Below, one piece after another: positions 782-23,936 of a DNA stretch of 33,937 nt; position 1 is the stretch's first letter; each line of letters opens with the position of its first letter. The translations under genes and the position numbers were made by a program. The stretch is from Bacteroides sp. (lineage in GTDB: Bacteria > Bacteroidota > Bacteroidia > Bacteroidales > Bacteroidaceae): the NCBI GenBank assembly GCA_015060735.1, contig SUXX01000026.1:1-33937 (forward strand). Reading direction: 5' to 3'. The notes under the pieces are model-generated. The model had not been told where the DNA came from. It did no database searches and saw only the letters and a program-made list of their open reading frames with translations.

Positions 782-1348
782 TTATGCCTTTACACGGCCT
801 ACGTATGAACCGTCGCGAGTATCGATTTCGATTGTTTCGCCTTCGTTAATAAACAAAGGAACACGAACTGTAGCACCTGATTCAACAGTTGCCGGCTTCA
901 ATGTGTTAGTAGCTGTATCGCCCTTCAAGCCCGGTTCTGTATAAGTAATCTTCAACTGAACCTTTACCGGCAATTCACCATAAAGAATAGTTTCAGTAGA
1001 AGCATCAGAAACTACATCGATAACCATACCTTCAATCAAGAAATCCACACCTGTAATCAATTCCTTAGCGATAGGTACTTGATCGAAAGTTTCCTGATTC
1101 ATGAAGATGTAGTCAGCACCTTCCATATACAAATATTGGTACGGACGACGTTCTACACGTACATCTTCCAACTTTTCACCGATGTTGAAACGACGTTCCA
1201 ATACGTAACCGTTTACTACGTCTTTCAACTTAGTACGCATAAATGTGTTACCCTTACCTGGCTTTACGTGCAAGAAGTCAATACAGAAATACAATTTGCC
1301 GTCCATACGGATAGCTGTTCCGATTTTAATGTCTTGAGCGTTAATCAT
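782..1348 (-). CDS. efp: Translation elongation factor P
   Basis: A 188-residue protein, the usual EF-P length. EF-P enters ribosomes stalled on consecutive prolines and stimulates peptide-bond formation; it acts in the cytoplasm. The three beta-barrel domains are recognisable: an N-terminal KOW-like domain with the loop HVKPGKGNT at residues 27-35, a central OB domain (about 65-125), and a C-terminal OB domain with GETIEIDTRDGSYVGR near the end. The loop tip carries Lys32, the position that is post-translationally modified in several bacteria. No epmA or epmB gene is in the window, so whether Lys32 is modified here cannot be told. The gene is monocistronic, with a promoter at 1414-1445 and a terminator at 729-761, and is divergent from rpmH. 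Confidence 0.98.
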   Translation of the reverse strand: MINAQDIKIGTAIRMDGKLYFCIDFLHVKPGKGNTFMRTKLKDVVNGYVLERRFNIGEKLEDVRVERRPYQYLYMEGADYIFMNQETFDQVPIAKELITGVDFLIEGMVIDVVSDASTETILYGELPVKVQLKITYTEPGLKGDTATNTLKPATVESGATVRVPLFINEGETIEIDTRDGSYVGRVKA

Positions 1349-1413
1349 AACTTTTTCGCTTATATTTGATTATTAATCTGATTATATTCAACTTTTCATC
1401 TTGAATTCGGGTG

Positions 1414-1445
1414 CAAAAGTAATGTAAATCAGCAAAAAACGCAAA
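1414..1445 (-). promoter_or_regulatory. efp promoter
   Basis: On the minus strand TACTTTTG (1414-1421) matches the -7 consensus TAnnTTTG exactly. TTTG (1442-1445) lies 20 bp upstream, the expected -33 spacing. The leader to the efp ATG is about 60 bases. Confidence 0.75.
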
Positions 1446-1472
1446 AAGAAAAGCATAAAAATCGCTCCACTC

Positions 1473-1503
1473 TTTGTTTATTTCAAAAAAGTCACTAATT
1501 TTG
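1473..1503 (+). promoter_or_regulatory. rpmH promoter
   Basis: TTTG (1473-1476), a 19-bp spacer, and TAATTTTG (1496-1503) give an exact match to the Bacteroidetes sigma-ABfr promoter. The rpmH ATG follows about 42 bases after the -7 box. It points away from the efp promoter, the two starting about 75 bp apart. Confidence 0.8.
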
Positions 1504-1545
1504 CAGCCCGTTACGGTGAATAATAACATAAAATAGTATATAGCA

Positions 1546-1710
1546 ATGAAAAGAACATTCCAACCCTCTAACAGAAAGAGAAAAAACAAGCACGGTTTCC
1601 GTGAAAGAATGGCAACAGCGAACGGTCGCCGCGTATTGGCAAGCCGTCGTGCTAAAGGTCGTAAGAAATTAACAGTATCTGATGAATTCAATGGCACAAC
1701 AAAGAAATAA
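1546..1710 (+). CDS. rpmH: 50S ribosomal protein L34
   Basis: A short gene of 54 codons starting at ATG 1546 and ending at TAA 1708-1710. The product begins [20 protein letters not shown] and continues with [20 protein letters not shown], which is unmistakable L34: a highly basic small protein of the large ribosomal subunit. L34 is usually 44-46 residues; this one has a C-terminal tail of about ten residues ([12 protein letters not shown]). It does not sit beside rnpA or dnaA as in many bacteria but opposite efp. It has its own promoter (1473-1503) and a terminator (1723-1771) shared with the convergent GH20 gene. Confidence 0.97.
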
Positions 1711-1722
1711 ATCATCAGAACC

Positions 1723-1771
1723 GATAAAATAAAAGGAGCGAACTTCCAAGTTTCGCTCCTTTTATTTTATC
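1723..1771. terminator. Bidirectional terminator between rpmH and the GH20 gene
   Basis: A long inverted repeat (1723-1745 with 1748-1771) is fully paired except for one bulged base. AT-rich outer arms give a T-run on either strand. It overlaps the last codons of the convergent GH20 gene. Confidence 0.85.
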
Positions 1772-4154
1772 ATTCTGACTCTACAGTCTCCACTTCCACC
1801 ATGATTTCATCTACATATATTTTGGCTTCCTGATTAGGTCGAACATGCGTTTTCGGACATTTCCCTATACCTTTCAATATAACCCGAACGTATCGTGCCG
1901 CATCATCTATTTCAAGAGCCAAATCTTCAACTCGACATCCCTCGTTAAAGATTTCGACAGGCTTGAAGCTTTTTTCCGAAATCTTCCAATATGAAACTTC
2001 ATTATCAGACAACCATACCTCCACCGATGCTGGTTTATGAATCCCCATTCCAAAATCATTCAAACACCCCAGTAATAATCGTTTCAGTTTCTTGCGACCA
2101 CCCATATCCAATGTCAACGCTATCGAATCGTTTTTTGTCCAAGAAGCCCATTCCGAATCTGTACACTTCAAACTACCACGCACACCATTCACTATCCTTC
2201 TTTCCACAGGATTACTTCTCAGTAGATTTTTTCCCGTACTTTCATTCATTACAATAGGAAGTTCCAACACCTCTCCCATCTGTTTACCATTCTTAAAAGT
2301 TGCACACTTCACCACTTGCGACTCCTTCACTACCCACGGGCGACGATACAATGCAGAATTAGCTTGAGGAGTACGCCCATCCTCTGTATAGCGAATTTCC
2401 AAATCAGGTCGCTGGCTCTTTAGCGTTACTTTCAAGTTACCAAATTCCGGAACAACCTCATGTTCTATATTATACATAGACTGAGCCGGTTTTATCCCTT
2501 TCATTATCCAGCGTTCCATATATCCATCCAAAGTCGGCAGAAAACGATTCCATCGCTTGGCTATAGGAAGACTCCATGCCGTTTCTGCAACTGCAGCCAA
2601 TCTAGGGAACAATAAATACTCCGCCTCTTCCGGTTTCTCGCAAAATTCAGTCCATAAAGAAGCTTGTACTCCCAGCAACAAAGACCGCATAGACATTGTC
2701 CAATACCGTTCTATTGGCTCATATTTATAAATTTCTTCCAATGTATTTTCTCCTTCAAAAGCTCTAGGTTCAAACCATTGAGGCCCTTGTCTGCGATTCA
2801 GGTACATAATATCGGTAGGTGCCACTATAAACTGATGTCCCTGCTTTCCCGCCTTTACTGCTCCATGACCATATCCATGCCAATCAAATACCACAGCCCC
2901 TTTTGACAGATTAGCATCCATGACTTCTTCCCAACCCATTACTTTGCGACCTTTACCACGAACATAGCGATCTATCCGTCGCATAAAATATCCCAACAGG
3001 TCTTTTTCATTATTCAAATCCTCCTTCTTCATCAACGCCTGACACACAGGGCATTCCTCCCAATGTGTTTTCCGAACAGCATCTCCACCTAAATGAATAT
3101 AACGGGATGGGAACAACGAAATCACTTCATCAAGAACATTTTGCAGAAACGTGTATACTTCCTCACTCCCTGCACAATAAAGAATATCCGAATGATTTCC
3201 TCCCAAACCGGGCACAACTCCTATATATTTATCAACTACCGGGCAAGCCAACAACGGATATGCAGCCAAAGCTGCATTGCTATGTCCCGGCATGGCTATT
3301 TCCGGAATAACATCTATCTGACGGGCAGATGCATACGCTACAATCTCACGAATATCATCCTGTGTATAGTATCCGTGATCAACGACCGGCTCACCTTGTC
3401 GTTGATTCCTACGGTCAGGAAAATCAATTCCGGATCTTTCTACCCTTTTTGAGCCTATTTCCGTCAATAACGGATATTGTTTGATCTCCAAACGCCAACC
3501 ATTATCATCCGTCAAATGCAAATGCAAGGCATTCAGTTTCAACATCCCCATACAATCTATAATCCGGAGCAAATTCTCTTTCGGTATAAAACAACGAGCG
3601 ACATCTACCATCAGCCCACGATATTCATAACGAGGTTCGTCTGCGATATCTAACACCGGAATAGACCATTCCATTTCCTTTTGCAAATTAGCCCCTTCTA
3701 TTTCAACAGGCAACAATTGACGAATGGTTTGTAACGCATAAAAAAGTCCTTTATTGGTAGAAGCCCTGACAATGATTTTATTCAATGTGACGGTCAAATG
3801 ATAAGCCTCATCTTTCAAGTTGCCATCTTTCAACAAACAGACATCTCCCTTCTTACTTCCTATTTTCAATTTCGGGATAAAGCCTGTTTTCTGTCCCATA
3901 AAAGTCAAAAAATCCTTCACCATCAGTTCTCCTGATTTATCTTCTAAAGCGACTACCGTCTTCTCCGAAAAGACAAAACGTCCTTCACCAATAGTCATGC
4001 TAGCAGGATAAGGAATGATTGATACAGAATTCATTGAAGTTTGTGCATTCACAAAAATAGGGCATAAACATCCCATTAATAAATAGAGGGAAATACACAA
4101 ATAGCTTTTTGCAAAAAGTTTCAAATATTTGTCTAAAGTTTTCTCTTTGGTCAT
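1770..4154 (-). CDS. Secreted GH20 beta-hexosaminidase homologue, probable pseudoenzyme
   Basis: The start at 4154 is chosen because the promoter at 4179-4210 lies inside the longer open frame and because it puts the signal peptide (about residues 1-37, ending near VNAQ) at the N-terminus. Domains in order over 794 residues: GH20 N-terminal domain (about 45-175), GH20 TIM barrel (about 180-540, with HLHLTDDNGWRLEI), a chitobiase C-terminal-like domain around RYTEDGRTP, and a discoidin-like C-terminal domain. Active GH20 enzymes cut terminal GlcNAc/GalNAc using an Asp-Glu pair in HxGGDE. Here that motif reads HLGGDAVRKTHW, with Ala359 in place of the catalytic Glu. In addition PEI(D/E)MPGH reads PEIAMPGH (Ala287), and the usual DVSRHF reads DVARCF. 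The fold is intact, so this looks like a conserved non-hydrolytic, perhaps sugar-binding, protein. The gene is monocistronic. Confidence 0.9.
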   Translation of the reverse strand: MTKEKTLDKYLKLFAKSYLCISLYLLMGCLCPIFVNAQTSMNSVSIIPYPASMTIGEGRFVFSEKTVVALEDKSGELMVKDFLTFMGQKTGFIPKLKIGSKKGDVCLLKDGNLKDEAYHLTVTLNKIIVRASTNKGLFYALQTIRQLLPVEIEGANLQKEMEWSIPVLDIADEPRYEYRGLMVDVARCFIPKENLLRIIDCMGMLKLNALHLHLTDDNGWRLEIKQYPLLTEIGSKRVERSGIDFPDRRNQRQGEPVVDHGYYTQDDIREIVAYASARQIDVIPEIAMPGHSNAALAAYPLLACPVVDKYIGVVPGLGGNHSDILYCAGSEEVYTFLQNVLDEVISLFPSRYIHLGGDAVRKTHWEECPVCQALMKKEDLNNEKDLLGYFMRRIDRYVRGKGRKVMGWEEVMDANLSKGAVVFDWHGYGHGAVKAGKQGHQFIVAPTDIMYLNRRQGPQWFEPRAFEGENTLEEIYKYEPIERYWTMSMRSLLLGVQASLWTEFCEKPEEAEYLLFPRLAAVAETAWSLPIAKRWNRFLPTLDGYMERWIMKGIKPAQSMYNIEHEVVPEFGNLKVTLKSQRPDLEIRYTEDGRTPQANSALYRRPWVVKESQVVKCATFKNGKQMGEVLELPIVMNESTGKNLLRSNPVERRIVNGVRGSLKCTDSEWASWTKNDSIALTLDMGGRKKLKRLLLGCLNDFGMGIHKPASVEVWLSDNEVSYWKISEKSFKPVEIFNEGCRVEDLALEIDDAARYVRVILKGIGKCPKTHVRPNQEAKIYVDEIMVEVETVESE

Positions 4155-4178: not shown

Positions 4179-4210
4179 TAAAGGTACTGAATTTTCACTT
4201 ATTAAGCAAA
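4179..4210 (-). promoter_or_regulatory. Promoter of the GH20 gene
   Basis: On the minus strand TACCTTTA (4179-4186) has one mismatch to TAnnTTTG. TTTG (4207-4210) lies exactly 20 bp upstream. Transcription would begin about 20 bases before ATG 4154, which rules out the longer upstream start. Confidence 0.65.
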
Positions 4211-10460: not shown

Positions 10461-10540
10461 AAGAATTTAATCAATTTGTAAGAAGAAATGCAGAATAAAA
10501 AACTATCCATAAAAATTACCTTATTTACACAAAAAAGCCG

Positions 10541-10548
10541 TATCTTTA
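10541..10548 (+). promoter_or_regulatory. Possible promoter of the PNGase-GH92-GH92 operon
   Basis: TATCTTTA has one mismatch to TAnnTTTG and lies 26 bases before ATG 10575. No convincing -33 box is seen. A short palindrome, GTTAAATTTAAC (10553-10564), lies between this box and the start codon and could be an operator or chance AT-rich symmetry. Confidence 0.45.
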
Positions 10549-10574
10549 CCGAGTTAAATTTAACTCATAAATTC

Positions 10575-12284
10575 ATGAAAAACATCTATTTAAAAAATGT
10601 GTGGATGCTGATAACTTGTTTATTGGCTTTATCAGTTCAAGCACAAGTGTCGCCTAAGAAATTCAAAAAGGCAAAAGGTATCGAAGTAACTTACCAATCA
10701 AGCTACAAAGGCAAGGTTCGCCCCGGAGAAATGATTATGAAGGTCAACGGAGACCAAGTGGCCTTGGAAAGCATCATGCCCAAACGGGATAATCAGCCGG
10801 CAACCGATGGCCGACCGGTTTACAAACTTCCCGTGACCAAAAGCTACATGGACTACTCTGCCAATGAATATTACCGATGGGCCGAACTTCCTAGCGGAGA
10901 AATCATCTCATCGGCTACGGCCTACGAAATGGACAAGGATTTGAAAGTTATCGGCCAGGAAAAATATTTAGGTTTGAACTGTACCGTAGTACGCACATCG
11001 GTTCGTTCGAACACCATCGAAATTTGGTATACCAATGACTTGGCTTTCCGCGGAACTCCACAACCCAACATGGGTGTGCCCAATGGTTTGGTACTCCGCG
11101 TGGTTCGTAATGGCGACACCGTGCAAGAAGCAACTGCCATCACTCCGGTGAAGGAAGAACAAACCCTTCTCCCTTCTTCATGGGGTACTCGGATGATTGC
11201 TGAAGTTTACCAATATAAAATCAACCATAGCAATGTGATTACCATACCTGTATTCGAAGAAGAAAATGTATGCTTCAACGGTGCCAAGTTCCCCGAAAAG
11301 TTGGAAGACGGTGTATCATATCGTGTCGGAGGTGGTACCATCTTAATGAAGAAAGTGAAACTTCCTGAATATGTGAAAGATCGCAGCATCTTCGTGGAAC
11401 TTATCCAATGGTCGGACGGAGATGCTTACGACCGTACCGGCTCGGTATTCGTAATTCCGACCGACAAGAAGCAATCATTCCTGGATGCAATGAAAGACCT
11501 TAAGAGTGTCCCTCACTTTACTTCCGACAATGAAAACTACCACGGTTTGGTTTCTACAGAAGACTACAACGCCCCGTTGGAACTGATGCGTTTCTTCACC
11601 GGCTTCGGTGTACGTCAGTACAACCATAACATTGTGCCAGGACAAGAATGGTCAGACTCAGTGCTTTACAAAACCGAAGTAACAGCCTTGGCCGACCGTT
11701 TGCAAGGCGAAGTATGGGTAGCCGCCTACATCGGAAACTGGGATGCCAAAGGCCATAAGATAACCTTGAAAATGAAATATTATCCGGATGAAAATCGCCG
11801 TATGTATAAAGTAACCCCACTGTTCAATACCGTAAACTATCTGGAACAAGCCGGCCAGCCTTATCCTGTATTTATGCTGAACGACAAGTTGAACGCCAAG
11901 TTCACTCTGAAGGAGCCGGTAAAGAATGCTGTACTCTATTTTACAACAACCGGCCATGGCGGTTGGGGCAATGGCGATGAATTCAACCAAAAGCCGAATA
12001 CCATTTACCTGAATGGCGACAAAGTCATCTCCTTTGTACCTTGGAGAGACGATTGCGGAACATACCGCAATTGGAACCCATGTTCAGGCAACTTTGCCAA
12101 TGGTTTGAGCTCATCCGACCTAAGCCGTTCGAACTGGTGTCCGGGTACCGTCACTAATCCGGAGTACATCTACTTAGGCGACTTAGACGCCGGTGAGCAC
12201 ACCATTACCGTAGAGATTCCGCAAGGAGCACCGGAAGGTGGAAGCAACAGTTACTGGTGTCTGTCAGGAACCTTGCTCTATTGA
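10575..12284 (+). CDS. PNGase F-type peptide-N-glycosidase, secreted
   Basis: Start at 10575, giving a signal peptide (MKNIYLKNVWMLITCLLALS, cleaved near VQAQ) and 569 residues. PNGases hydrolyse the bond between Asn and the first GlcNAc of an N-glycan, freeing the whole glycan. Layout: an N-terminal domain (about 25-225) with a GLPGLI-like stretch (IEIWYTNDLAFRG, GVPNGLVLRVVRNG), probably comparable to the bowl-like domain of PNGase F-II; then the first (about 235-420) and second (about 425-569) PNGase F jelly-roll domains. By my alignment from memory with PNGase F, Asp60 matches Asp286 (AYDRTGSV) and Glu206 matches Glu469 (GNGDEF), while Glu118 matches Gly387 (YIGNW). A Gly there is, as I recall, also seen in enzymes tolerating core alpha-1,3-fucose. 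SDLSRSNWCPGTVTNP is typical of the C-terminal domain. First gene of the operon; 30 bases before a GH92 gene. Confidence 0.88.
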   Translation: MKNIYLKNVWMLITCLLALSVQAQVSPKKFKKAKGIEVTYQSSYKGKVRPGEMIMKVNGDQVALESIMPKRDNQPATDGRPVYKLPVTKSYMDYSANEYYRWAELPSGEIISSATAYEMDKDLKVIGQEKYLGLNCTVVRTSVRSNTIEIWYTNDLAFRGTPQPNMGVPNGLVLRVVRNGDTVQEATAITPVKEEQTLLPSSWGTRMIAEVYQYKINHSNVITIPVFEEENVCFNGAKFPEKLEDGVSYRVGGGTILMKKVKLPEYVKDRSIFVELIQWSDGDAYDRTGSVFVIPTDKKQSFLDAMKDLKSVPHFTSDNENYHGLVSTEDYNAPLELMRFFTGFGVRQYNHNIVPGQEWSDSVLYKTEVTALADRLQGEVWVAAYIGNWDAKGHKITLKMKYYPDENRRMYKVTPLFNTVNYLEQAGQPYPVFMLNDKLNAKFTLKEPVKNAVLYFTTTGHGGWGNGDEFNQKPNTIYLNGDKVISFVPWRDDCGTYRNWNPCSGNFANGLSSSDLSRSNWCPGTVTNPEYIYLGDLDAGEHTITVEIPQGAPEGGSNSYWCLSGTLLY

Positions 12285-12314
12285 ATATAAATCATAAATA
12301 AACAATCATAACTC

Positions 12315-14510
12315 ATGAAAAAAACGGTTTCATTTTTATGTTCACTGGCTTTGGCCGGAACATTTATCAGTTGCGGTAACACTACGGAAAATACCGCACA
12401 GAAGGATTACACACAATATGTGAATCCCTTCATTGGAGCAGCCGACAACGGCCACACCTTCCCAGGAGCTTGTGCCCCTTTCGGTATGATACAAACCAGC
12501 CCCGTCACAGGAGCAGTGGGATGGAGATATTGCTCGGAATATGTAAACGAAGACTCAGAAATTTGGGGGTTCACTCAAACTCACCTCAACGGTACCGGAT
12601 GTATGGACCTGGGCGACTTGCTCATCATGCCCGTAACCGGCAACCGCACCCGATCCTGGGATGGTTATCGTAGCAGTTTTAAAAAGGAACACGAAGCAGC
12701 CACTCCCGGATATTACACCGTAGAGTTGCAAGAGCCGAACGTGAAGGCTGAGCTCACCGCATCAACCCGTGTAGCATTCCACCGTTATACCTATCACAAG
12801 GCAGATTCGGCCTCGGTACTTATCGACTTGCAACATGGCCCGGCTTGGAATGAAAAACAATATCATTCGCATGTACGTTCTTGCGAAACAAATTGGGAAG
12901 ATGCACAAACCTTGACCGGACATGTAAATAACAGCGTATGGGTAAACCAAGATTACTACTTCGTAGTGAAGTTCAATCGACCGGTAAAGGAACACATCTA
13001 CTTGCCACTGGCTGAAACAGAAAAAGGTCACCGCATCGTAGCTAGCTTCGACATGAAGCCAGAAGACGAACTATTGGTAAAAATTGCCCTTTCTACCACC
13101 GGTGTAGAAGGTGCCAAGAAGAATCTGGAAGCTGAAGTGCCGGGGTGGGAATTTGAAGCCACTCGACAAGCTGCCAAGGATAGTTGGAACAGTTACTTTG
13201 CTCGCATTGATGTGACAGGCACAGAAGACCAACTAATGAACTATTATACCTCTTTCTATCATGCATTGATTCAACCAAACCAAATCTCGGATGTGGACGG
13301 TATGTATCGTAATGCCAAAAACGAAGTGGTGAAGACAGCCGGTGATGCTTTCTATTCTACTTTCTCTTTGTGGGACACTTACCGTGCTGCTCATCCATTC
13401 TACACCATCATGATTCCTGAACGTGTAGACGGTTTCATCAACTCGTTGATTGAAAACGGTGAAGCACAAGGTTTCATCCCTATCTGGGCATTGTGGGGCA
13501 AGGACAACTATTGTATGGTGGCTAACCACGGTGTAGCCGTAGTAGCCGAAGCTTATCGCAAAGGTTTCCGTGGCTTCGATGCTGAACGTGCTTTCAACAT
13601 CATGAAACGCACACAAACTGAATCGCACAAATTGAAATCTGATTGGGAAACTTACATGAAGTATGGTTACTTCCCTACAGACTTGATTCGTGCAGAATCG
13701 GTATCTTCTACTCTCGAATCTGTTTATGATGACTATGCAGTATGGGACATGGCAACTCGTATGGGTAAGACAGAAGATATTGAGTACTATGCCAAGCGTA
13801 AGGATTTCTATAAAAACTTGTTCGACACCCAAACTCAATTCATGCGTCCTCGTTTAGCCGATGGAACTTGGAGAAGCCCGTTCGATCCTAGCCGTATCGG
13901 CCACTCTGAAAGTGTGGGTGGAGACTATACCGAAGGTAATGCATGGCAATATACATGGCATGTACAACACGATATTCCGGGATTGATTGAACTCTTTGGT
14001 GGCGAAGAAGCATTCACACACAAGCTGGATTCATTCTTTACATTGAAGTTGGAAACCAATGCTGCCGACGTTACTGGCCTCATCGGACAATATGCACACG
14101 GTAACGAGCCAAGTCACCACGTAGCATACCTTTATAATTTGGCAGGAAAACCGGAACGTACACAGGAACTCATCCGCAAAATCTTCGATACACAATACCG
14201 TCCGGAACCTGACGGCTTGTGTGGTAACGACGACTGCGGCCAAATGTCAGCTTGGTACATGTTCTCGGCCATGGGCTTCTACCCGGTAGACCCAGTAAGC
14301 GGGAACTATGTATTTGGAGCTCCACAGATGCCGAAGATTGTTCTCCACTTGGCTGATGGTAAGACTTTCACCGTCATTGCAGAAGGCATCTCTGAAGAAA
14401 ACAAGTACGTGGAAAGCATCACCTTCAACGGCCAGCCGTACACCAAGAATTACATCACCCACGAAGACGTGATGAATGGTGGAACACTGGTATTCAAGAT
14501 GAAAAAGTAA
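12315..14510 (+). CDS. GH92 alpha-mannosidase lipoprotein, first copy
   Basis: 731 residues with a lipobox ending TFISC (Cys20), so probably anchored in the outer membrane or periplasm. GH92 enzymes are calcium-dependent exo-alpha-mannosidases acting on N-glycans and related mannans. Seen here: YVNPFIGAADNGHTFPGA in the N-terminal beta-sandwich domain, FYSTFSLWDTYRAAHPF entering the (alpha/alpha)6 domain, DYTEGNAWQYTWHVQHD with the probable acid Glu540, HGNEPSHH, and LCGNDDCGQMSAWYMFSAMG with the probable base Asp639/640. All expected residues are present, so it should be active. Linkage preference (alpha-1,2, -1,3, -1,6 or mannose-1-phosphate) cannot be assigned by eye. It is followed after 35 bases by a close paralogue, clearly a tandem duplication. 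Confidence 0.95.
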   Translation: MKKTVSFLCSLALAGTFISCGNTTENTAQKDYTQYVNPFIGAADNGHTFPGACAPFGMIQTSPVTGAVGWRYCSEYVNEDSEIWGFTQTHLNGTGCMDLGDLLIMPVTGNRTRSWDGYRSSFKKEHEAATPGYYTVELQEPNVKAELTASTRVAFHRYTYHKADSASVLIDLQHGPAWNEKQYHSHVRSCETNWEDAQTLTGHVNNSVWVNQDYYFVVKFNRPVKEHIYLPLAETEKGHRIVASFDMKPEDELLVKIALSTTGVEGAKKNLEAEVPGWEFEATRQAAKDSWNSYFARIDVTGTEDQLMNYYTSFYHALIQPNQISDVDGMYRNAKNEVVKTAGDAFYSTFSLWDTYRAAHPFYTIMIPERVDGFINSLIENGEAQGFIPIWALWGKDNYCMVANHGVAVVAEAYRKGFRGFDAERAFNIMKRTQTESHKLKSDWETYMKYGYFPTDLIRAESVSSTLESVYDDYAVWDMATRMGKTEDIEYYAKRKDFYKNLFDTQTQFMRPRLADGTWRSPFDPSRIGHSESVGGDYTEGNAWQYTWHVQHDIPGLIELFGGEEAFTHKLDSFFTLKLETNAADVTGLIGQYAHGNEPSHHVAYLYNLAGKPERTQELIRKIFDTQYRPEPDGLCGNDDCGQMSAWYMFSAMGFYPVDPVSGNYVFGAPQMPKIVLHLADGKTFTVIAEGISEENKYVESITFNGQPYTKNYITHEDVMNGGTLVFKMKK

Positions 14511-14545
14511 ATATAGAGTATAAAGAGAAATTAAAAACTAAAAAA

Positions 14546-16738
14546 ATGAAAAAGACAACATTGTTTTTGTGTAGTCTTATTCTGACCGGTATTGGTTTCA
14601 GCTGTAGCACGGCTGAAACCAATACTACGATTAAAGACTACACCCAATATGTAGATCCTTTCATCGGAGGATTTGAGAATGGTCATACATTCCCTGGAGC
14701 TTGTGCTCCTTTCGGAATGCTTCAACCTAGTCCTGTAACCGGTGCTATCGGTTGGAAATATTGTGGAGAATATTCGTATGCCGACTCCATTATTTGGGGA
14801 TTCACGCAAACTCATTTAAATGGTACAGGCAGTATAGACTTAGGTGACTTGCTTATTATGCCTGTTACAGGAAATCGGACACGAGCATGGGATGGCTACC
14901 GCAGTAAGTTCTCCAAGGAACACGAAGCAGCATCACCAGGATACTATACAGTTGAACTGGATGAGCCAGGAGTAAAGGCTGAAATGACTGCTACCACTCA
15001 TGCAGCCATCTATCGCTACACTTACCACAAGGCAGACTCAGCTTCAATGCTCATCGACTTGCAACATGCTCCTTCAGGCAATGAAAAAAGATATCACTCC
15101 AACGTGTTGGAATGTGAATATAATTGGGAAGATGCACAAACATTGACCGGCCATGTGAAAAACAAGGCATGGATTGAACAAGACTACTTCTTCGTATTGC
15201 AATTCAATCGTCCTGTAACCGAACGTATCAACCTTCCGATGGCTGAAACTGAAAAGGGGCAACGCATCATTGCTAGCTTCGACATGAAACCAGAAGATGA
15301 GTTGTTGGTTAAATTGGCTTTATCAACAGCTAGCGTAGAAGGAGCCAAGAAAAATCTGAATGCCGAAATTCCTCATTGGGAATTTGATGCTACTCATCAA
15401 AAAGTTAAAGACGAATGGAACAGTTATTTAAGTAGAATTGATGTAAAGGGTAGCAAAGAACAATTGTTGAATTACTATACCTCTTTCTATCACTTACTCA
15501 TGCAACCAAACGAAATCTCGGATGTGGATGGTATGTACCGTAACACAAACGATGAGACCGTAAAGGCACAGGGAGAAGCATTCTATTCTACTTTCTCTTT
15601 ATGGGATACTTACCGTGCTGCACATCCATTGTACACTATCATCACTCCTGAACGTGTGGATGGTTTTATCACTTCCTTGCTCGAGCATGGCGAAGCCCAA
15701 GGTTTCCTCCCTATTTGGGCATTGTGGGGCGTAGATAATTTCGGTATGATTGCTAATCATGGCGTTCCTGTAGTAGTTGAAGCATATCGTAAAGGTTTCA
15801 AGGGATTTGATGCAGAACGTGCTTACAACATGGTAAAAGCGTCACAAACTGTTCCCCACAAGCGTAAATCTTATTGGGATATGTACATGAAATATGGTTA
15901 TTACCCAACAGACTTGATGGATACTGAATCGGTTTCGTATACCCTCGAATCAGTTTACGATGACTATGCAGCAGCCGTAATGGCCAAAGACTTGGGCAAG
16001 ACCGAGGATGCCGAATACTTTGGAAAACGTGCAAATTTCTACAAGAATTTGTTTGATACAGAAACCCAATTTATGCGTCCTCGCAAAGCAGACGGAAGTT
16101 GGAGAACTCCTTTCAATCCAAGTGCCGTAGGACACTATCAAACCGGCGGTGACTATACCGAAGGTAATGCATGGCAATACACTTGGCACGTTCAACACGA
16201 TGTAACTGGTTTGATTGAACTCTTTGGCGGTGCAGACAAGTTCAAGACTAAACTTGACTCCTTGTTTACAGTAGAATTGCAAACCAATGCAGTGGATGTA
16301 ACCGGATTGATTGGACAATATGCTCATGGCAACGAACCTAGTCATCACGTAGTTTATATGTATACCATTGCCGGCTATCCGGAACGTGCACAAGAGTTAA
16401 TCCGTGAAATCTTTGATACTCAATACAAGCCAGAGCCTGACGGTCTTTGCGGTAACGATGACTGCGGTCAGATGTCAGCTTGGTACATGTTCTCAGCCAT
16501 GGGCTTCTACCCGGTAGACCCAGTAAGCTGTAACTATATATTTGGTGCACCACAGATTCCACAAATCACATTGAATTTGAACAACGGTAAGACATTTACT
16601 GTCATTGCAGAAAACCTCTCGGAAGAGAACAAGTATGTAGAAAGCATTACTTTCAACGGAAAACCATACACCAAGAATTACATCACTCATGAAGATGTTA
16701 TGAACGGTGGCACATTGGTATTCAAGATGAAGAAATAA
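14546..16738 (+). CDS. GH92 alpha-mannosidase lipoprotein, second copy
   Basis: 730 residues, lipobox ending GIGFSC (Cys20), and colinear with the preceding GH92 gene with hardly any gaps. Catalytic landmarks are intact: DYTEGNAWQYTWHVQHD (Glu539), HGNEPSHH and LCGNDDCGQMSAWYM (Asp638/639). Differences from the first copy cluster in substrate-facing loops, for example LWGVDNFGMIANHG against LWGKDNYCMVANHG, TPFNPSAVGHYQTG against SPFDPSRIGHSESV, and DPVSCNY against DPVSGNY. That pattern suggests the two copies divide linkages or branches between them. The C-terminal 20 residues are nearly identical. Last gene of the plus-strand block, ending at the convergent terminator. Confidence 0.95.
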   Translation: MKKTTLFLCSLILTGIGFSCSTAETNTTIKDYTQYVDPFIGGFENGHTFPGACAPFGMLQPSPVTGAIGWKYCGEYSYADSIIWGFTQTHLNGTGSIDLGDLLIMPVTGNRTRAWDGYRSKFSKEHEAASPGYYTVELDEPGVKAEMTATTHAAIYRYTYHKADSASMLIDLQHAPSGNEKRYHSNVLECEYNWEDAQTLTGHVKNKAWIEQDYFFVLQFNRPVTERINLPMAETEKGQRIIASFDMKPEDELLVKLALSTASVEGAKKNLNAEIPHWEFDATHQKVKDEWNSYLSRIDVKGSKEQLLNYYTSFYHLLMQPNEISDVDGMYRNTNDETVKAQGEAFYSTFSLWDTYRAAHPLYTIITPERVDGFITSLLEHGEAQGFLPIWALWGVDNFGMIANHGVPVVVEAYRKGFKGFDAERAYNMVKASQTVPHKRKSYWDMYMKYGYYPTDLMDTESVSYTLESVYDDYAAAVMAKDLGKTEDAEYFGKRANFYKNLFDTETQFMRPRKADGSWRTPFNPSAVGHYQTGGDYTEGNAWQYTWHVQHDVTGLIELFGGADKFKTKLDSLFTVELQTNAVDVTGLIGQYAHGNEPSHHVVYMYTIAGYPERAQELIREIFDTQYKPEPDGLCGNDDCGQMSAWYMFSAMGFYPVDPVSCNYIFGAPQIPQITLNLNNGKTFTVIAENLSEENKYVESITFNGKPYTKNYITHEDVMNGGTLVFKMKK

Positions 16739-16744
16739 GACTCA

Positions 16745-16808
16745 CATCTTATCCAAATAAAAAGAGAGCATCCAAAATTGGATACTCTCTTTTTATTTGG
16801 ATAAGATG
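16745..16808. terminator. Convergent bidirectional terminator between GH92 and GH3 blocks
   Basis: A 29-bp inverted repeat (16745-16773 with 16780-16808) with one mismatch and a 6-base loop. AT-rich outer arms supply T-runs on both strands. It separates the two convergent glycosidase blocks and fills almost the whole gap between them. Confidence 0.92.
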
Positions 16809-16816
16809 CAAAACTA

Positions 16817-19165
16817 TTACAGCTCAAATTTTCCGTTCAAACGAATATCGTTAGAAGCAGCACCAACCATGACTTTGAATTCACCTGGTTCTACCACTTC
16901 TTCCAAATTCATATTATAAATAGACAATTCCTTCTTGGTCAAGTTGAAAGTAACCTTCTTACTTTCTCCCTTCTTCAAGCTAATACGTTCAAAAGCCTTC
17001 AGCAAAATCGGAGCCTGAGCAACCGAAGCTACCATGTCACGAATATAAAGCTGAACCACTTCATGCCCATCACGATCACCGGTGTTAGTTACTGTACAGC
17101 TTACAGTCTGAAGCACATCCTTACCATCACCAGATTTGATTTCCAGGTTGCTATAATCGAACTTTGTATAGCTCAAACCATAACCAAATGAATAGAGTGC
17201 ATTGGCTTCACCATCCATATAAGCACGTTGCTTGCCCTTCGAGTAATAAATAGGCAACTGACCTTCGTTGCGAGCAATGGATACCGGCAAACGACCAGCA
17301 GGATTGTAATCACCGAACAATACATCGGCAATACCATGACCACCTTCACCACCTGGATACCATGCAGTCAACAAGGCATTAGCCTTCTCTGCTGCAAGGT
17401 TCATCTTCAAGGTACGTCCCTGAATGTAAACTACTACCAACGGCTTGCCTGTTTCAATCAAAGCCTGCATCAATTTTTCTTGGTCACCTAGGAGATCAAG
17501 AGTGCTACGGTCGTAACCTTCACCACAGTCCATATCGAGCAATACTTGTCCTTCTTCATCATTAGCAATAGCAGCAGCAGTTGCCTCATACTTCACTCTG
17601 AAGTCGCGAGCACTGGAACCACCGACTACCAATACAACTACATCCGATTCTTTTGCAGCCTTTACTGCAGCTGGGATATCGCTCATAGTCACGTCTCGGA
17701 TGGCACACCCCTTCACATAGTTCACCTTAGTATTCTTTGACACTGCAGCTTGGATACCTTCTAACGGAGTGATGATGAACTTGTCATCCTGAGGAGCGGT
17801 ATAGTCCCCCAACTGATTGTATTGTGTATCTGCATTCGGTCCAATCACTGCAATGCTCTTGATATCCTTACTCAAAGGAAGAATACCATCGTTCTTTAAA
17901 AGCACTGTACCTTCACGTGCTACTTCACGAGCTACCTGGCGATGAGCTTCCGAACGTACATACTTCTTTGCATCTTTCGGAGATACATACGGATTTTCAA
18001 ACAGGCCCATCTTGAATTTCAAACGAAGAATATTTGCCACTGCTTGGTCTACATATTTCATATCCAAACGGCCTTCGTTCAACAATTCCAAAGTACGTTT
18101 ACCATAAGCATTTGCACCAAGGTCCATATCCACACCGGCTTCCAAAGCAAACTTTCCGGCTTCCTTGGTATCCTTTGCCACATGATGGGTACCGGCAATA
18201 CCGTCAATACTATACAAGTCTGAATAAACAAATCCCTTGAATCCCCACTTGCCACGCAAAATATCGGTCAACAAGAATTTATTGGAAGTACAAGGTACAC
18301 CGTCTATCGCATTATATGAAGTCATGATTGTAGCCAAACCATTTTCTACAGCCATTTTCATTGGAGGGAGGAAATCGGAGAACAACTGATTCATACCCAC
18401 CATGGCACGATCACCATTATGACCACCTTCCGGAGTTCCATAAGCAGCGAAGTGCTTCACTGTAGAATACAAATGCTTTCCATCGTTTTGCACATCCCCT
18501 TGCATACCTTTCATATAGGCTACACCCAAGATTCCGGCCAACATCGGGTCCTCACCGAAACTTTCTTCCATACGCGACCAACGCGGTTCACGCGAAATAT
18601 CCAATACCGGGCCATAACCAACATTTGCTCCTTGCAAACGGGCTTCAAGAGCTACCACTTCGCCAGCACGACGGAGCAATTCTTCATTCCAGGTACTAGC
18701 CATTGACAAACCGGTAGGGAATACTGTTGCACCAATAGCCATATGTCCATGTGGCGTTTCTTCTGCGAACAGCACCGGGATACCCAAACGAGTTTCTTCC
18801 ACAGCATACTTCTGAAGTTTGTTAATAGCTTCTGCTGCTAATTCCGGGTTCAAACCTGTTTCCAGCGTCTTACGGGTCCATGGGTCGGCACGAAGCACTG
18901 CCCAATACGAACCAATAGGCATACCGTTTCCCATCTGCTTCTTGTAAAGCTCAGAAACCTCTACCTTATCTCCAGTCTTGGTGTACATTTCCCACCCTAA
19001 CGGGCAACAAAGTTGGCCTACTTTTTCTTCTGTAGTCATTCTTTCCAACAAATCCTTCACACGGTCTTCTATCGGAGCCGAAGCCTGCTTATACAAAGGT
19101 TGTTGAGCCACTGCCTGACCTACCACAAGGAAAAGAGCAGCCGCCAATACATGTTTCATTCTCAT
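16817..19165 (-). CDS. Secreted GH3 beta-glycosidase
   Basis: 782 residues with a signal peptide (MRMKHVLAAALFLVVGQAVA, cleaved near AVAQ). Family 3 enzymes are retaining exo-beta-glucosidases, beta-xylosidases or N-acetylglucosaminidases. Domain order: (beta/alpha)8 barrel with GYGPVLDISREPRWSRMEES and GFVYSDLYSIDG, where Asp316 is the expected nucleophile; alpha/beta sandwich with VLVVGGSSARD and DCGEGYDRSTLDLLGDQ, where Glu549 is a good acid/base candidate; and a C-terminal fibronectin III-like domain. The three-domain form argues against a short NagZ-type enzyme. Beside PNGase, GH92 and GH29 genes, removal of core beta-1,2-xylose or another beta-linked sugar of N-glycans is plausible but unproven. 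Only 4 bases separate it from the upstream GH29 gene; it is the last gene of the minus-strand operon. Confidence 0.93.
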   Translation of the reverse strand: MRMKHVLAAALFLVVGQAVAQQPLYKQASAPIEDRVKDLLERMTTEEKVGQLCCPLGWEMYTKTGDKVEVSELYKKQMGNGMPIGSYWAVLRADPWTRKTLETGLNPELAAEAINKLQKYAVEETRLGIPVLFAEETPHGHMAIGATVFPTGLSMASTWNEELLRRAGEVVALEARLQGANVGYGPVLDISREPRWSRMEESFGEDPMLAGILGVAYMKGMQGDVQNDGKHLYSTVKHFAAYGTPEGGHNGDRAMVGMNQLFSDFLPPMKMAVENGLATIMTSYNAIDGVPCTSNKFLLTDILRGKWGFKGFVYSDLYSIDGIAGTHHVAKDTKEAGKFALEAGVDMDLGANAYGKRTLELLNEGRLDMKYVDQAVANILRLKFKMGLFENPYVSPKDAKKYVRSEAHRQVAREVAREGTVLLKNDGILPLSKDIKSIAVIGPNADTQYNQLGDYTAPQDDKFIITPLEGIQAAVSKNTKVNYVKGCAIRDVTMSDIPAAVKAAKESDVVVLVVGGSSARDFRVKYEATAAAIANDEEGQVLLDMDCGEGYDRSTLDLLGDQEKLMQALIETGKPLVVVYIQGRTLKMNLAAEKANALLTAWYPGGEGGHGIADVLFGDYNPAGRLPVSIARNEGQLPIYYSKGKQRAYMDGEANALYSFGYGLSYTKFDYSNLEIKSGDGKDVLQTVSCTVTNTGDRDGHEVVQLYIRDMVASVAQAPILLKAFERISLKKGESKKVTFNLTKKELSIYNMNLEEVVEPGEFKVMVGAASNDIRLNGKFEL

Positions 19166-19169
19166 AATA

Positions 19170-20558
19170 TTATTTCTTAAGTTTAAATTTCAAAGCAACA
19201 GGTTCATTCTTCAAACCTTTCGGAAGGGTTACTACAACCTTACCATCCTTTACCTTATACTTGGCACCCTTACCAGTGTTCAATACCGTTAACTTGCCCT
19301 TCGGAATATTTACCGTCCACTCAATGGTTTCTGGAAGGGTTTCACCATCAGCTACGGTATAGATTGCATAAAGGGTTTCACCATCTTTGTTAGCAGTAAA
19401 CCACACATTACCTTCGTTGTAATGCGGAGTGATGCGAGTGCTATAGATGGCTTCACCGTTTTGACGCAACCAATTACCTACCTCATGCAGACGTTCTACT
19501 ATCGGCTGCTCGATGATACCATCAGCCGTAGGGCCAACGCCCAACAAGAAGCAACCACCTTTGGCACAAATTTCAGCCAAAAGATTGATAACAGTCTGCG
19601 GAGACTTATATGGAGCATTGGGCACCCATCCCCAGTCGTGACTCAATGTAATACAACTTTCCCAGGGATAATCCAATTGAGTTTCCGGAATACCACGTTC
19701 CGGAGTCTGGTAATTTTCATTCTTACCGCGAATACTTCTATCGACCGAAATCAAACCCGGATGTCTTTGACGAGCCTTTTCCAAAACGCGGTCCAAGTTC
19801 ACGTCATCACCGGTGACCCAACCTCCATCTAACCAAAGAATATCAAAACTTCCATAATTGGACATCAATTCATTCAACTGGTTTTCAGTAAACTCCTGAT
19901 AATTCTTCCACCACTCCGGATGTAATTTCACGTTGTAGTTATGACGTCGATTCGGTGTGGCATAGTAAGGATTCCAATACCACTCGCAATGCCAGTCCGG
20001 CTTGGAAAAATAACATCCCATCATGAATCCTTTCTTACGGAACGCATCCCATACATGGCGAGCTACATCTTTTCTTGGGTCATCCTTATATGCACCATTA
20101 GCTATTGAGAAATCGGTATATTTCGTATCAAACATACAAAATCCATCATGATGCTTGCTGGTAAAAATCATATACTTCATTCCGGCATCTTCCATCACTT
20201 CTGCCCATTGGTCCGGATTAAAGTTTACAGGATTCAGCTTATCCTTCAAACCAAAATACCATTTCTTATATTCTACATACGGAAGATTCTCTTTACGAGT
20301 TATCCAATCCACATCTTCCGAACAGATTGACCATGATTCCACGATACCGGGAACAGAATACAATCCCCAATGAAACAACACACCGAATTTCTGGTCTTGC
20401 CATTTATCAAGTTTTTCCAATACTTGTGGGTCAGTAGGCCATACATAGTCCGAAGCTTTGGACTGTTGGTGCACAAATCCTTGTACTTGTTGAGCCTGTA
20501 CATTCATAGCCAAAGCCATACCAGCCAGGCATCCCATTATCTTTTTCCAATTTTTCAT
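19170..20558 (-). CDS. GH29 alpha-L-fucosidase, copy A
   Basis: 462 residues with a signal peptide ending near VQAQ. GH29 enzymes remove alpha-linked L-fucose by a retaining mechanism. The barrel carries FGVLFHWGLYSVPGIVESW, FTSKHHDGFCMFDTKYTDF, and FDILWLDGGW with the nucleophile Asp244. LDYPWESCITLSHDWGW resembles the region that holds the acid/base Glu in the alpha-1,3/1,4-specific subfamily (GH29-B), so action on alpha-1,3-fucose, including core fucose, is possible. A short beta-sandwich follows. It is a tandem paralogue of the next gene upstream, separated by 5 bases, and lies 4 bases before GH3. Confidence 0.95.
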   Translation of the reverse strand: MKNWKKIMGCLAGMALAMNVQAQQVQGFVHQQSKASDYVWPTDPQVLEKLDKWQDQKFGVLFHWGLYSVPGIVESWSICSEDVDWITRKENLPYVEYKKWYFGLKDKLNPVNFNPDQWAEVMEDAGMKYMIFTSKHHDGFCMFDTKYTDFSIANGAYKDDPRKDVARHVWDAFRKKGFMMGCYFSKPDWHCEWYWNPYYATPNRRHNYNVKLHPEWWKNYQEFTENQLNELMSNYGSFDILWLDGGWVTGDDVNLDRVLEKARQRHPGLISVDRSIRGKNENYQTPERGIPETQLDYPWESCITLSHDWGWVPNAPYKSPQTVINLLAEICAKGGCFLLGVGPTADGIIEQPIVERLHEVGNWLRQNGEAIYSTRITPHYNEGNVWFTANKDGETLYAIYTVADGETLPETIEWTVNIPKGKLTVLNTGKGAKYKVKDGKVVVTLPKGLKNEPVALKFKLKK

Positions 20559-20563
20559 TATTC

Positions 20564-21940
20564 TTACTTCTTTACGTTGAAACTTAATGCTATCGGTTCA
20601 TTTTTCAAACCTTTCGGTAATTTTACAATCACTTTACCATCTTTACAAGTATAGCTTACAGCCCGCTTTCCCTTCAGTAGTGTCATTCGACCTACAGGTT
20701 CATTGCCTTCCCATTCAATGGTTGCCGGAAGTTCTTCACCATCAGGCAAAGCATAAATGGCATACAATGTCTTCTCATTTTTGTCGGCAGTAAACCAAAC
20801 ATTACCGGTATTATAATTAGGCGTAATACGAGTATTATAAATAGCTTTTCCATTAACCTTCAGCCATGCACCGATTTCTTTCAAAATCGCTTCTACCTCC
20901 GGCTGAATCAAACCTTGCGGAGTAGGACCGACACCTAAAGCTAAGCTACCGCCCTTGGCACAGATTTCGGAAAGCATACCAATCACCTTACGAGGAGTCT
21001 TGAACACTGGATTAGCTACCCAACCCCAATCGTGGCTCAAAGTGATACAACTTTCCCAAGGATAATCCAATTGCTTGGCAGGAATACCTCGTTCCGGAGT
21101 TTGGTAATTTTCATTACGGCCCTTAATGGCACGGTCTACACTAATCAAGCCCGGTTGAGTGGTGGAGCGTACTTCGGCCAACAATTTGTCCAAGCCCACT
21201 TCTTCACCTTTCACCCAGCCTCCATCCAGCCAGAGGATATCAAAACTACCATATCCGGTCATCAATTCTTTCAACTGATTATAAGTATATTCCTGATAAT
21301 TCTTCCACCATTCCGGATGACGTTCTTTCTTATAGTTCGCTCCTCGTCGCGGAGTGTCGTATTCGGGATTCCAGAACCATTCACAATGCCAGTCTGGCTT
21401 CGAGAAATAACATCCCATCATAAAGTTCTTCTTACGGAATGCATCCCATACATGACGAGCAACATCCTTTCGAGGGTCATTTTTGAATGCACCATTAGCG
21501 ATTGAGAAATCAGTATACTTCGTATCATACATACAGAAACCATCGTGATGCTTGGTCGTAAATATCATATATTTCATCCCTGCTTCTTCCATAATCCGTG
21601 CCCATTGGTCTGGATCAAAATCAGTTGGATTGAATTCATCAATCAAACCAAAGTACCACTTTTTATAGTCATAGTAACTATCCATCGGACGTACAATCCA
21701 ATCCTCCGAACAAATATTCCATGATTCTACAATACCCGGCACAGAGTACAATCCCCAATGAAACAGTACACCAAACTTTTGGTCTTGCCACTTGTCCAGT
21801 TTTTCCAACACTCCTTTGTCTGTAGGCCATTCATAGCCGTCAGATTGTCCATGAACAAAACTGTTCTCCGATTGTGCATGGATGTTCAAGGCCATTGCCC
21901 CTCCCAACAAGGATACCATTAATCTTTTAATCATTTTCAT
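20564..21940 (-). CDS. GH29 alpha-L-fucosidase, copy B
   Basis: 458 residues, signal peptide ending near IHAQ. It matches copy A along its whole length: FGVLFHWGLYSVPGIVESW, TTKHHDGFCMYDTKYTDF, the nucleophile Asp239 in FDILWLDGGW, and LDYPWESCITLSHDWGW. The main differences lie just after GIVESW (NICSEDWIVRPMDSYYDY here, SICSEDVDWITRKENLPYVE in copy A), a loop near the active-site entrance, and in the C-terminal sandwich. The two copies therefore may accept fucose in different linkages or on different glycan arms. An in-frame ATG at the third codon is an alternative start. It lies 10 bases downstream of the FGE/BNR gene. Confidence 0.94.
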   Translation of the reverse strand: MKMIKRLMVSLLGGAMALNIHAQSENSFVHGQSDGYEWPTDKGVLEKLDKWQDQKFGVLFHWGLYSVPGIVESWNICSEDWIVRPMDSYYDYKKWYFGLIDEFNPTDFDPDQWARIMEEAGMKYMIFTTKHHDGFCMYDTKYTDFSIANGAFKNDPRKDVARHVWDAFRKKNFMMGCYFSKPDWHCEWFWNPEYDTPRRGANYKKERHPEWWKNYQEYTYNQLKELMTGYGSFDILWLDGGWVKGEEVGLDKLLAEVRSTTQPGLISVDRAIKGRNENYQTPERGIPAKQLDYPWESCITLSHDWGWVANPVFKTPRKVIGMLSEICAKGGSLALGVGPTPQGLIQPEVEAILKEIGAWLKVNGKAIYNTRITPNYNTGNVWFTADKNEKTLYAIYALPDGEELPATIEWEGNEPVGRMTLLKGKRAVSYTCKDGKVIVKLPKGLKNEPIALSFNVKK

Positions 21941-21950
21941 AAGTATCGAT

Positions 21951-23900
21951 TTATTTATTATTTATTTTATCTTCCAACCAAGCCAAGTTAAACCGATAGT
22001 GAATACGGCTACTCAAAATATGAATTACGTTGTCTGAAGTCTGTGTGCCGGCCAAGTATCCTCTAGGTTCTGCATGTGTAGCATCCATTGTAAAATATCC
22101 TGTCCAAGCTCCCCCGTTCAGATGACGTTCTTTTCCATCCGTTATCAGTTTTCTTACCGGCCATGTCTTACCCTCGTCATACGACAAGGCTGCATACATG
22201 CCATATCCTCGGAACGAATTTCCTTTTCCATCTGTGAACTCCATTCCCCTATCCGTTTTTCTAGTCCGTTGAGGATGATCCGTAAATGAAACGAGCAACA
22301 ACGGTCCCTCTTTCAATCGCATCAAAACCAGCCGTTGTCCACCATCAATGGCTGGGAAAGGCGACAGATGATATTCCCATGTCTTCCCCATATCCTTGGA
22401 TAAACTCATTGGCATCATTTTCTTCCCATTTTCTCCTATCAAACTATTTCCACGACCTAAGGCCAACAGATTTCCATTATTCAAGGTTACTACTCCAGCA
22501 TGAATACCGGCAATTGTTGTTCCTTTACCACCATCCTTAAACTCCGGCATCGGTGCACCATCCCAAGGATCCGTCCAAGTTTCTCCTCCATCTTTACTGA
22601 TATGAACAGCTGCTCCATCATGACTACCCGGTCCTGCATCACACACTTGAATCATCCATCCCACGGGCGTCATCGAGGTACCCGATACGACTTGATGTCG
22701 CTTCGTATGTTCGGGAGCTATAATCCTGGATTTTGACCATGAAAAACCATTATCTGTGCTTGTCCGCATCACCATCATCAAGTTTTGCCAGTCGCCGGCA
22801 GCCTCTACTCCATTAAAATGAAATAATTTCCCCTTGCCATTATTAAAAAGGGAGGAACCTGTCATATTTCTGTCCGGCACTTTATAAAACAATTCTGCCG
22901 GAGTCCATGTCGTAGCCCCCTTCCGCAACCGTGAAGAAAGTACGACCATCCCTCGCCCATTTTCGGCACTGGCCGAGAACCATACCGCCAACAAATCCCC
23001 ATTATTACACCAAGTAATAGAGGGTTGATGATTATGCTTATAAAATGGAACATTAGAGCCAGATACCGGCGGTTGAACATAGACCAACGGTTCCATAAAA
23101 AGTGGCTTCGCTAAATCCAAACGATTCGATGCAAACGGTTCCTCACTTTCCACAACTCGGAAACCGGTCAATGAATGTTTGTCTTCCGGAATCATAGCCA
23201 TCCGATTGGCACTCCGCAGATATTCATCGGGGGTATGATGGCTTCCACCTCGTGTCACCCGGAACTCTCCTTCCATTGGACCTCTTGGGTCGGTCTGTTC
23301 TTTGGCTTCATAAGGTGCATACCAATCCATACACCATTCTTCTACATTACCATGCATATCATAAAGGCCAAATGCATTTGGCGGTGTTTGACCAACTTTC
23401 AATGAAACGGCCTTATAATCACGGGCTATCGTTTGATTTCTTCGCATGGATGACGGCAATCCATCCCCAGTATAATATAAGGTATAAGTGCCTGCCCTAC
23501 ATGCATATTCCCATTCTGCCTCAGTAGGCAAACGATAATATTTCCCTTCCTTCTCCGACAACCATTTACAAAAGTCCAAAGCATCTTGATAAGAAACATT
23601 GACTACCGCATCATCATCCTCGGTTGAGACATTATTTTTCCCACGTAAAGACTTATGTTCAGGGCGGAACAATTCATATTGAGCATTGGTAACTTCGGTC
23701 ACTCCCATCCGAAAAGGTTTAGAGATATTTACTTTATGCACCGGTGCTTCATCAAAGTCCTCTCCAAAGCCATCACTACCCATATAAAAACTACCGGCCG
23801 GAATTTCAACCGTTTTAATGACAAAAGTTTGGGCATTGCTCACTAACGAGCATCCTAACGTCAAGAAAAGAGAAATAAAAAAGCAATATGTATTTTTCAT
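21951..23900 (-). CDS. Exported fusion of FGE-like domain and BNR (sialidase-fold) propeller
   Basis: The start at 23900 is preferred over a longer frame because the promoter at 23937-23967 lies within that extension and because it gives a signal peptide ending near SNAQ (a Cys at 17 makes a lipoprotein possible). Residues about 28-250 are an FGE-sulfatase/SUMF1-like domain: IPAGSFYMGSD, YRLPTEAEWEYACRAG, FGLYDMHGNVEEWC and RVTRGGS. The two cysteines of true formylglycine-generating enzymes are absent (Thr223 and Leu228 by alignment). Residues about 265-649 form a BNR propeller with four Asp boxes at 381-388, 435-442, 501-508 and 573-580. No (F/Y)RIP motif is seen, so canonical GH33 sialidase activity is doubtful. 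It is the first gene of the GH29-GH29-GH3 operon. Substrate unknown. Confidence 0.88.
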   Translation of the reverse strand: MKNTYCFFISLFLTLGCSLVSNAQTFVIKTVEIPAGSFYMGSDGFGEDFDEAPVHKVNISKPFRMGVTEVTNAQYELFRPEHKSLRGKNNVSTEDDDAVVNVSYQDALDFCKWLSEKEGKYYRLPTEAEWEYACRAGTYTLYYTGDGLPSSMRRNQTIARDYKAVSLKVGQTPPNAFGLYDMHGNVEEWCMDWYAPYEAKEQTDPRGPMEGEFRVTRGGSHHTPDEYLRSANRMAMIPEDKHSLTGFRVVESEEPFASNRLDLAKPLFMEPLVYVQPPVSGSNVPFYKHNHQPSITWCNNGDLLAVWFSASAENGRGMVVLSSRLRKGATTWTPAELFYKVPDRNMTGSSLFNNGKGKLFHFNGVEAAGDWQNLMMVMRTSTDNGFSWSKSRIIAPEHTKRHQVVSGTSMTPVGWMIQVCDAGPGSHDGAAVHISKDGGETWTDPWDGAPMPEFKDGGKGTTIAGIHAGVVTLNNGNLLALGRGNSLIGENGKKMMPMSLSKDMGKTWEYHLSPFPAIDGGQRLVLMRLKEGPLLLVSFTDHPQRTRKTDRGMEFTDGKGNSFRGYGMYAALSYDEGKTWPVRKLITDGKERHLNGGAWTGYFTMDATHAEPRGYLAGTQTSDNVIHILSSRIHYRFNLAWLEDKINNK

Positions 23901-23936
23901 GTTTTCACTCAAAGGTTCATTCAAAAGCTCAGAGCA

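Follow-up and report, generated by a model that had tools for sequence, protein, structure and literature searches.

The locus studied here raises the question of what a GH20-type protein can still do when alanine stands in place of its general acid/base glutamate, and whether the gene for it is maintained at all. The gene lies on the minus strand of the window, that is, of the whole stretch of 33,937 nucleotides that was analyzed. The initial annotation described an intact frame of 794 residues with four domains and several independent active-site changes, and argued from these for a retained non-catalytic role or a changed mechanism. The gene and the parts of its product were located as follows:

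4179..4210, minus strand: Bacteroidetes-type promoter-like site TTTG-N20-TACCTTTA, from an upstream motif scan
1770..4154, minus strand: CDS of the Glu-less GH20-type protein (P0001), 794 aa, stop codon included; open frame, Pfam GH20
4044..4154, minus strand: putative N-terminal export signal, residues 1-37; N-termini judged by eye
3639..4022, minus strand: GH20b domain, residues 45-172; Pfam PF02838, 70.7 bits
2571..3629, minus strand: GH20 catalytic-type domain, residues 176-528; PF00728, 367.9 bits (cut-off 22.3)
2262..2435, minus strand: Fn3_assoc / CHB_HEX_C domain, about residues 574-631; PF13287 and PF13290
1869..2159, minus strand: weak F5/8 type C-like region, about residues 666-762; PF00754, 21.6 bits (cut-off 28.2)

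No internal stop was found over the 794 residues encoded at 1770-4154 (-), and the frame is intact, as had been claimed. The protein matches the PF00728 profile (370.7 bits in the genome search), which places it in the GH20 sequence family. Three of the four domains were recovered with Pfam; the fourth, F5/8 type C-like, is weakly supported because its score lies below the Pfam cut-off (21.6 vs 28.2 bits), and the description of the protein as four-domained is still fair. The NCBIfam search gave no usable name for the protein (28.5 bits vs a cut-off of 1000). The N-termini, inspected by eye, suggest export, and the signal is probably cleaved before Gln38. The promoter-like site follows the Bacteroidetes-type promoter consensus. 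It was matched in two of the seven upstream regions of the clade described below (window and G071), against 0.32 expected from shuffling; in the other five, a TA-N2-TTTG box alone was seen by eye.

The motifs HLGGDAVRKTHW, PEIAMPGH and DVARCF were all found in the 794-aa protein. The positions that set its active site apart, together with a possible ligand-binding pair, are listed below:

3294..3296, minus strand: Ala287 in PEI(D/E)MPGH; codon GCC
3078..3080, minus strand: Ala359, general acid/base position; codon GCT; Ala in 7/7 clade members, Glu in 63/63 other rows
2994..2996, minus strand: Leu387; Gln in 46/46 Glu-bearing rows counted
2928..2930, minus strand: Glu409 (GWEE); Asp (GWDE) in 46/46 Glu-bearing rows counted
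2865..2885, minus strand: DWHGYGH, residues 424-430; new Asp424, His426 and His430 around kept Trp425
2793..2798, minus strand: Asn453-Arg454 in YLNR, at the place of the 6-sulfate-binding residues of Bt4394; alignment to 7dup; Asn in 7/7, Arg in 5/7

The two alanines reported in the initial annotation were confirmed by their codons (GCT at 3080-3078 and GCC at 3296-3294). The alignment with characterized GH20 enzymes that it called for was run, and the solved structures 6q63, 3rcn and 7dup read GGDE where the present protein has GGDA (three printed alignments). Position 359 was Ala in nine of the 72 aligned rows and Glu in the remaining 63. Since L003 is identical to L035 and L004 to L037, these nine rows represent seven distinct sequences, each from a different genome. 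In all seven, Asp358 is kept and position 359 is Ala, so that the adjacent Asp-Glu catalytic pair is absent. At position 287, six members have Ala and one has Gly, whereas each of the 46 Glu-bearing rows counted has an acid there (Asp or Glu). An error of sequencing or assembly was considered and rejected: seven genomes each contribute a distinct sequence with Ala359, for which two codons are used (GCT in three members, GCC in four). The Ala287 codon is GCC, GCG, GCT or GCA.

The third block, DVARCF, had also been read as an active-site change. This part of the claim did not stand, because Arg187 of the block is kept in 7/7 clade members and the block itself varies among Glu-bearing close orthologues, which mostly read DVARFF, DVARYF or DVSRYF. 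The set of active-site changes thus retains A359 and A287, loses DVARCF, and gains Q387L, D409E, D424, H426, H430 and N453, which had not been listed. Of 70 positions that are near-invariant (identical in 45 or more of the 46 Glu-bearing rows), 65 are untouched in the clade. Three are replaced in all seven proteins (E359A, Q387L and D409E), and two vary within the clade (Y352F and P463S, two members each). At nine clade-fixed positions (359, 387, 409, 412, 424, 431, 447, 453 and 700), at least 93% of the 29 close Glu-bearing orthologues have a different residue; eight of these positions lie within the catalytic-type domain. Asp424, His426 and His430 are invariant in the clade.

Homologues carrying GGDA, a search for which had been proposed, were sought in 61 genomes of the genus (24 with a match at E <= 1e-180), in an even sample of the family (27/399 genomes at E <= 1e-180) and in an even sample of the order (17/393 genomes at E <= 1e-150). 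The duplicates L035 and L037 and the fragments L018, L044 and L045 were left out of the residue counts; L002 and L005 are the window gene itself. In a tree of 55 rows, the Ala359 sequences formed one clade with a support of 100/100, which corresponds to a single change of state. Two of the loci come from Bacteroidaceae MAGs, one from goat colon and one from water-buffalo colon. Glu-bearing members of the orthogroup are 45-61% identical. Each carrier genome gave 2 to 12 GH20 matches and so holds one or more besides the clade gene, and the Asp-Glu pair was kept in 23/23 further GH20 paralogue loci read in six carrier genomes; these 23, with L001 and L002 of the window genome and five clade genes, make up 30 of the 49 match rows. 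On viral contigs, searched with a family alignment, 13 stretches matched a pattern, and none was a GH20 relative.

Besides the clade gene, the window genome has a second GH20 (L001:1009-3327, contig C37), which reads GGDE. Its sulfate loop is LYFS-N and its domain limits lie very close to those of F3-ORF26 (PMC11659886), and by its sequence it is probably a 6-sulfo-GlcNAcase.

The neighborhood of the gene was then compared between the clade and its Glu-bearing sisters. In the sister genomes G016 and G002, the orthologue occupies the same chromosomal place, beside PASTA-RluD-Ddl, and is accompanied by frames of 527 aa (sulfatase-sized), 1024-1054 aa and 621 aa. By Pfam, the G002 neighbors are an SGSH_C-type sulfatase, a GH2 beta-galactosidase and a GH29 fucosidase with F5/8C. 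The scan covered five neighbors at L067, four at L068 and one at L069, and the GH2- and GH29-sized frames at L068 were assigned by size alone. Beyond the G002 cluster lies a radical-SAM/SPASM gene, whose product presumably matures sulfatases; G016 has this gene close by as well. The orthologue of G011 is adjoined by a sulfatase gene and by genes of the SusD and TonB-receptor types.

In all seven clade loci, the GH20-type gene directly faces PASTA, so the sulfatase is absent from this place. Two of the seven contigs (window and L062) extend far enough to show the downstream side, and the other five end there. The window has an rpmH-like frame followed by EF-P, and G070 has EF-P beyond a spacer that is 91% identical over 415 bases. 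Relatives of the G002 sulfatase at 62-64% were found elsewhere in G010, G031, G070 and G029, and none at E <= 1e-40 in G000, G071 and G073. GH2 relatives in the seven clade genomes reached 34-44% at best. The radical-SAM protein has relatives at 75-77% in G070, G073 and G029, and no match at E <= 1e-60 in G000, G071, G010 and G031. As the carrier genomes are 54-88% complete, these absences are no more than suggestive. The closest Glu-bearing sisters, G025 and G083, also have no such cluster beside the gene (a GH106 gene is there in G083), and the cluster was therefore probably lost before the Glu.

The open reading frame of 124 aa at 1341-1715 (-) was considered as a partner gene and rejected. 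It is antisense to the rpmH-like frame 1546-1710 (+), which encodes 54 aa recognized by eye as ribosomal protein L34, and it is probably not a gene. Its 92% conservation in L062 would be accounted for by the overlap with rpmH.

Two further observations concern other genes. The Glu-bearing sister L012 (G025; L070:8709-11012) has Cys at pocket position Tyr451 and Gly at Asp217, and the sulfatase/GH2/GH29 cluster is absent beside it; judged from these residues, it may possibly represent a second, independent loss of catalysis. Within the window, positions 10488-23966 hold an N-glycan-type run with a protein of PNGase F type, two GH92, a GH3, two GH29 fucosidases and a BNR protein. One frame of this region, 21951-23966 (-), combines an FGE-sulfatase-type domain (51-272) with a BNR/sialidase-like domain (323-612), which is an unusual-looking pairing.

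Once the cluster was gone, the gene may simply have begun to drift, with the loss of Glu as a hitch-hiker. The disappearance of the cluster partners from the locus is in keeping with such decay, as are the orphan sister L012, which bears Glu and has lost the pocket Tyr, and the divergence of the protein, since the clade members are 65-77% identical to the protein of the window and the adjacent RluD and Ddl 95-99%. However, the reading frames are open in 7/7 members, and the dN/dS values, determined by the NG86 method, range from 0.064 to 0.123. They were computed for 10 of the 21 clade pairs, of which eight gave a finite value and two did not, and one pair had a usable dS: G010-G070, the closest, with a dN/dS of 0.064 at a dS of 1.14. 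The other seven finite values were 0.074-0.123 with dS near saturation. A Glu-bearing pair, G016-G002, gave 0.070. The neighbors evolve more slowly within the clade (dN/dS 0.007-0.016 for RluD, 0-0.046 for Ddl and 0.024-0.052 for PASTA). Moreover, identical replacements are fixed in all members, and Ala359 persists through the turnover between GCT and GCC. We therefore disfavor decay as very improbable.

Neither the broken frame nor the relaxed selection of a pseudogene was found. What was found is a combination expected of a pseudoenzyme, a missing conserved catalytic residue together with purifying selection, and the Glu-less GH20-type protein looks like a maintained protein. The retained role postulated in the initial annotation is thus well supported by the conserved clade, the low dN/dS and the 65 of 70 near-invariant positions left untouched. 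Mean identity within the clade is 0.80 for the catalytic-type domain and 0.57-0.68 for the other four parts of the protein.

The role itself was approached through the sugar pocket. Of the nine subsite -1 residues of SpHEX (PMC8098473, Table 3), placed here by motifs and not by a residue-by-residue SpHEX alignment, seven are kept: R187, D358, W408, W425, Y451, W501 and E503. D216 and H291 are likewise retained by the clade. The equivalents of SpHEX Glu314 and Asp395 are Ala and Asn. The missing Glu predicts that ordinary GH20 hydrolysis is lost. In VhGlcNAcase, the equivalent replacement, E438A, lowers kcat/Km 354-fold and gives a Km of 128 vs 92 uM (PMC8098473, Table 4). Because this Km stays near the wild-type value, a GH20 pocket without Glu can still bind.

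The YLNR motif of the window protein aligns with YYINR of 7dup. According to PMC11659886, the 6-sulfate of 6S-GlcNAc is bound by an Asn-Arg pair that lies within YLNR in human HexA and within YYINR in Bt4394. We take 7dup to be Bt4394 because the paper gives 7DVB as the D335N mutant of that enzyme. A 6-sulfated ligand is a lead and not a finding, since Arg is present in 5/7 clade members and the place of Asn is occupied by Ile in 28/29 close Glu-bearing sisters; Arg at position 454 is found in 29/29 of them. The ligand is also uncertain because Asn stands at the place of SpHEX Asp395 and two of the seven members have lost Arg454.

The most economical reading, which we hold with moderate confidence, is that of a GH20 pseudoenzyme, an apparently exported protein that would bind N-acetylhexosamines. 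Its ancestor would have been an exo-hexosaminidase of a host-glycan gene cluster that lost its cluster partners first and the acid/base catalyst afterwards. The pocket would still hold a terminal sugar of the GlcNAc or GalNAc type, perhaps 6-sulfated and contacted through Asn453-Arg454. Hydrolysis would be lost or minimal, and the selected function would be the capture, presentation or sensing of the terminal sugar. This reading is supported by the single origin of the clade, the 65 of 70 positions and seven of nine contacts kept, and the low dN/dS, and further by the nearly unchanged Km of the VhGlcNAcase mutant, the catalytic-type domain being the best conserved, and the absence of the sulfatase from the locus. 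What argues against a pure binding role are the fixed residues E409, D424, H426 and H430, which are potentially catalytic and not required for binding.

These residues are the basis of the main rival, namely that the protein is a rebuilt enzyme which catalyzes without Glu at position 359. In one variant, a relocated acid/base, either Glu409 or the Asp424/His426/His430 patch, protonates the leaving group. In another, the substrate has so good a leaving group that no acid is needed, and Asp358 and the acetamido group still form the oxazoline. We consider such catalysis possible but rather unlikely; in its favor, the clade has fixed new Asp, His and Glu residues beside the kept pocket residues. 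The changes are concerted and fixed, with D409E, G424D, Q/R426H and the new H430 arising together with E359A, and the two residues of the substrate-assisted step, Asp358 and Tyr451, are retained in 7/7. In other pseudoenzyme families, such as kinases, catalytic residues are known to have migrated (PMC10211241). However, Asp424 and His426 flank Trp425 and may face away from the pocket, and D409E with Q/R426H could be a repacking of the second shell. Added formate, moreover, does not rescue VhGlcNAcase E438A (PMC4752478). A more specific proposal, to which we give a low probability, is that D424-x-H426-x3-H430 around Trp425, perhaps with Glu409, forms a new acid/base dyad or metal site next to the bound N-acetyl group, and supports a reaction on N-acetylhexosamines not known for GH20.

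A regulatory or structural partner, modulating a canonical GH20 or another glycosidase, would need no sugar in its own pocket. The further GH20 in every carrier genome would provide such a target, and other families are known to include pseudoenzymes by which active homologues are regulated (PMC10211241). Yet it is the sugar pocket that is kept, not surfaces alone, and no partner gene is linked at the locus. This role appears improbable.

If the protein does bind, as in the sugar-binding reading that we prefer, it would amount to a natural lectin for hexosamines, built on a GH20 scaffold; catalysis would break the rule that GH20 needs the acid/base Glu. The fixed replacements form a short list, each individually testable. 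With Glu-bearing sisters that are 55-61% identical, the transition from enzyme to probable non-enzyme has a definite place on the tree, and two relatives still carry the likely ancestral gene cluster at the corresponding chromosomal position.

Among the literature matches listed, which were mostly titles and beginnings of abstracts with few subscription papers, there was no natural GH20 clade without the acid/base Glu. With the known GH20 beta-N-acetylhexosaminidases (6q63, the best PDB sequence match, 3rcn, 7dup, SpHEX and VhGlcNAcase), the protein shares the common domains, the fold as judged by sequence, the polarizing Asp and seven of the nine subsite -1 residues. It differs from them in having no acid/base Glu, no acid in PEI(D/E), and GWEE for GWDE. 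The Glu-bearing orthologues from the same genus and family (L009, L010, L011, L012, L039 and others) belong to the same orthogroup and, in G016 and G002, occupy the same chromosomal place. Unlike the clade, all of them have GGDE and GWDE, and several lie within sulfatase/GH2/GH29 clusters. In comparison with the 6-sulfo-GlcNAcases Bt4394, human HexA and F3-ORF26 (PMC11659886), the protein reads YLNR at the sulfate-binding loop, like HexA, and YxNR, like Bt4394. Those enzymes are active with an Asp-Glu pair, whereas here the Glu is missing and Arg is found in 5/7 members only. The nearest precedent met is NGS1 of Trichoderma, which has a glycosidase-derived domain with variant catalytic residues and is a proposed GlcNAc sensor (PMC12176254). 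NGS1 is a fungal protein whose GH3-like part is joined to an acetyltransferase-type domain, whereas the present protein is of GH20 type, bacterial and has no output domain by Pfam.
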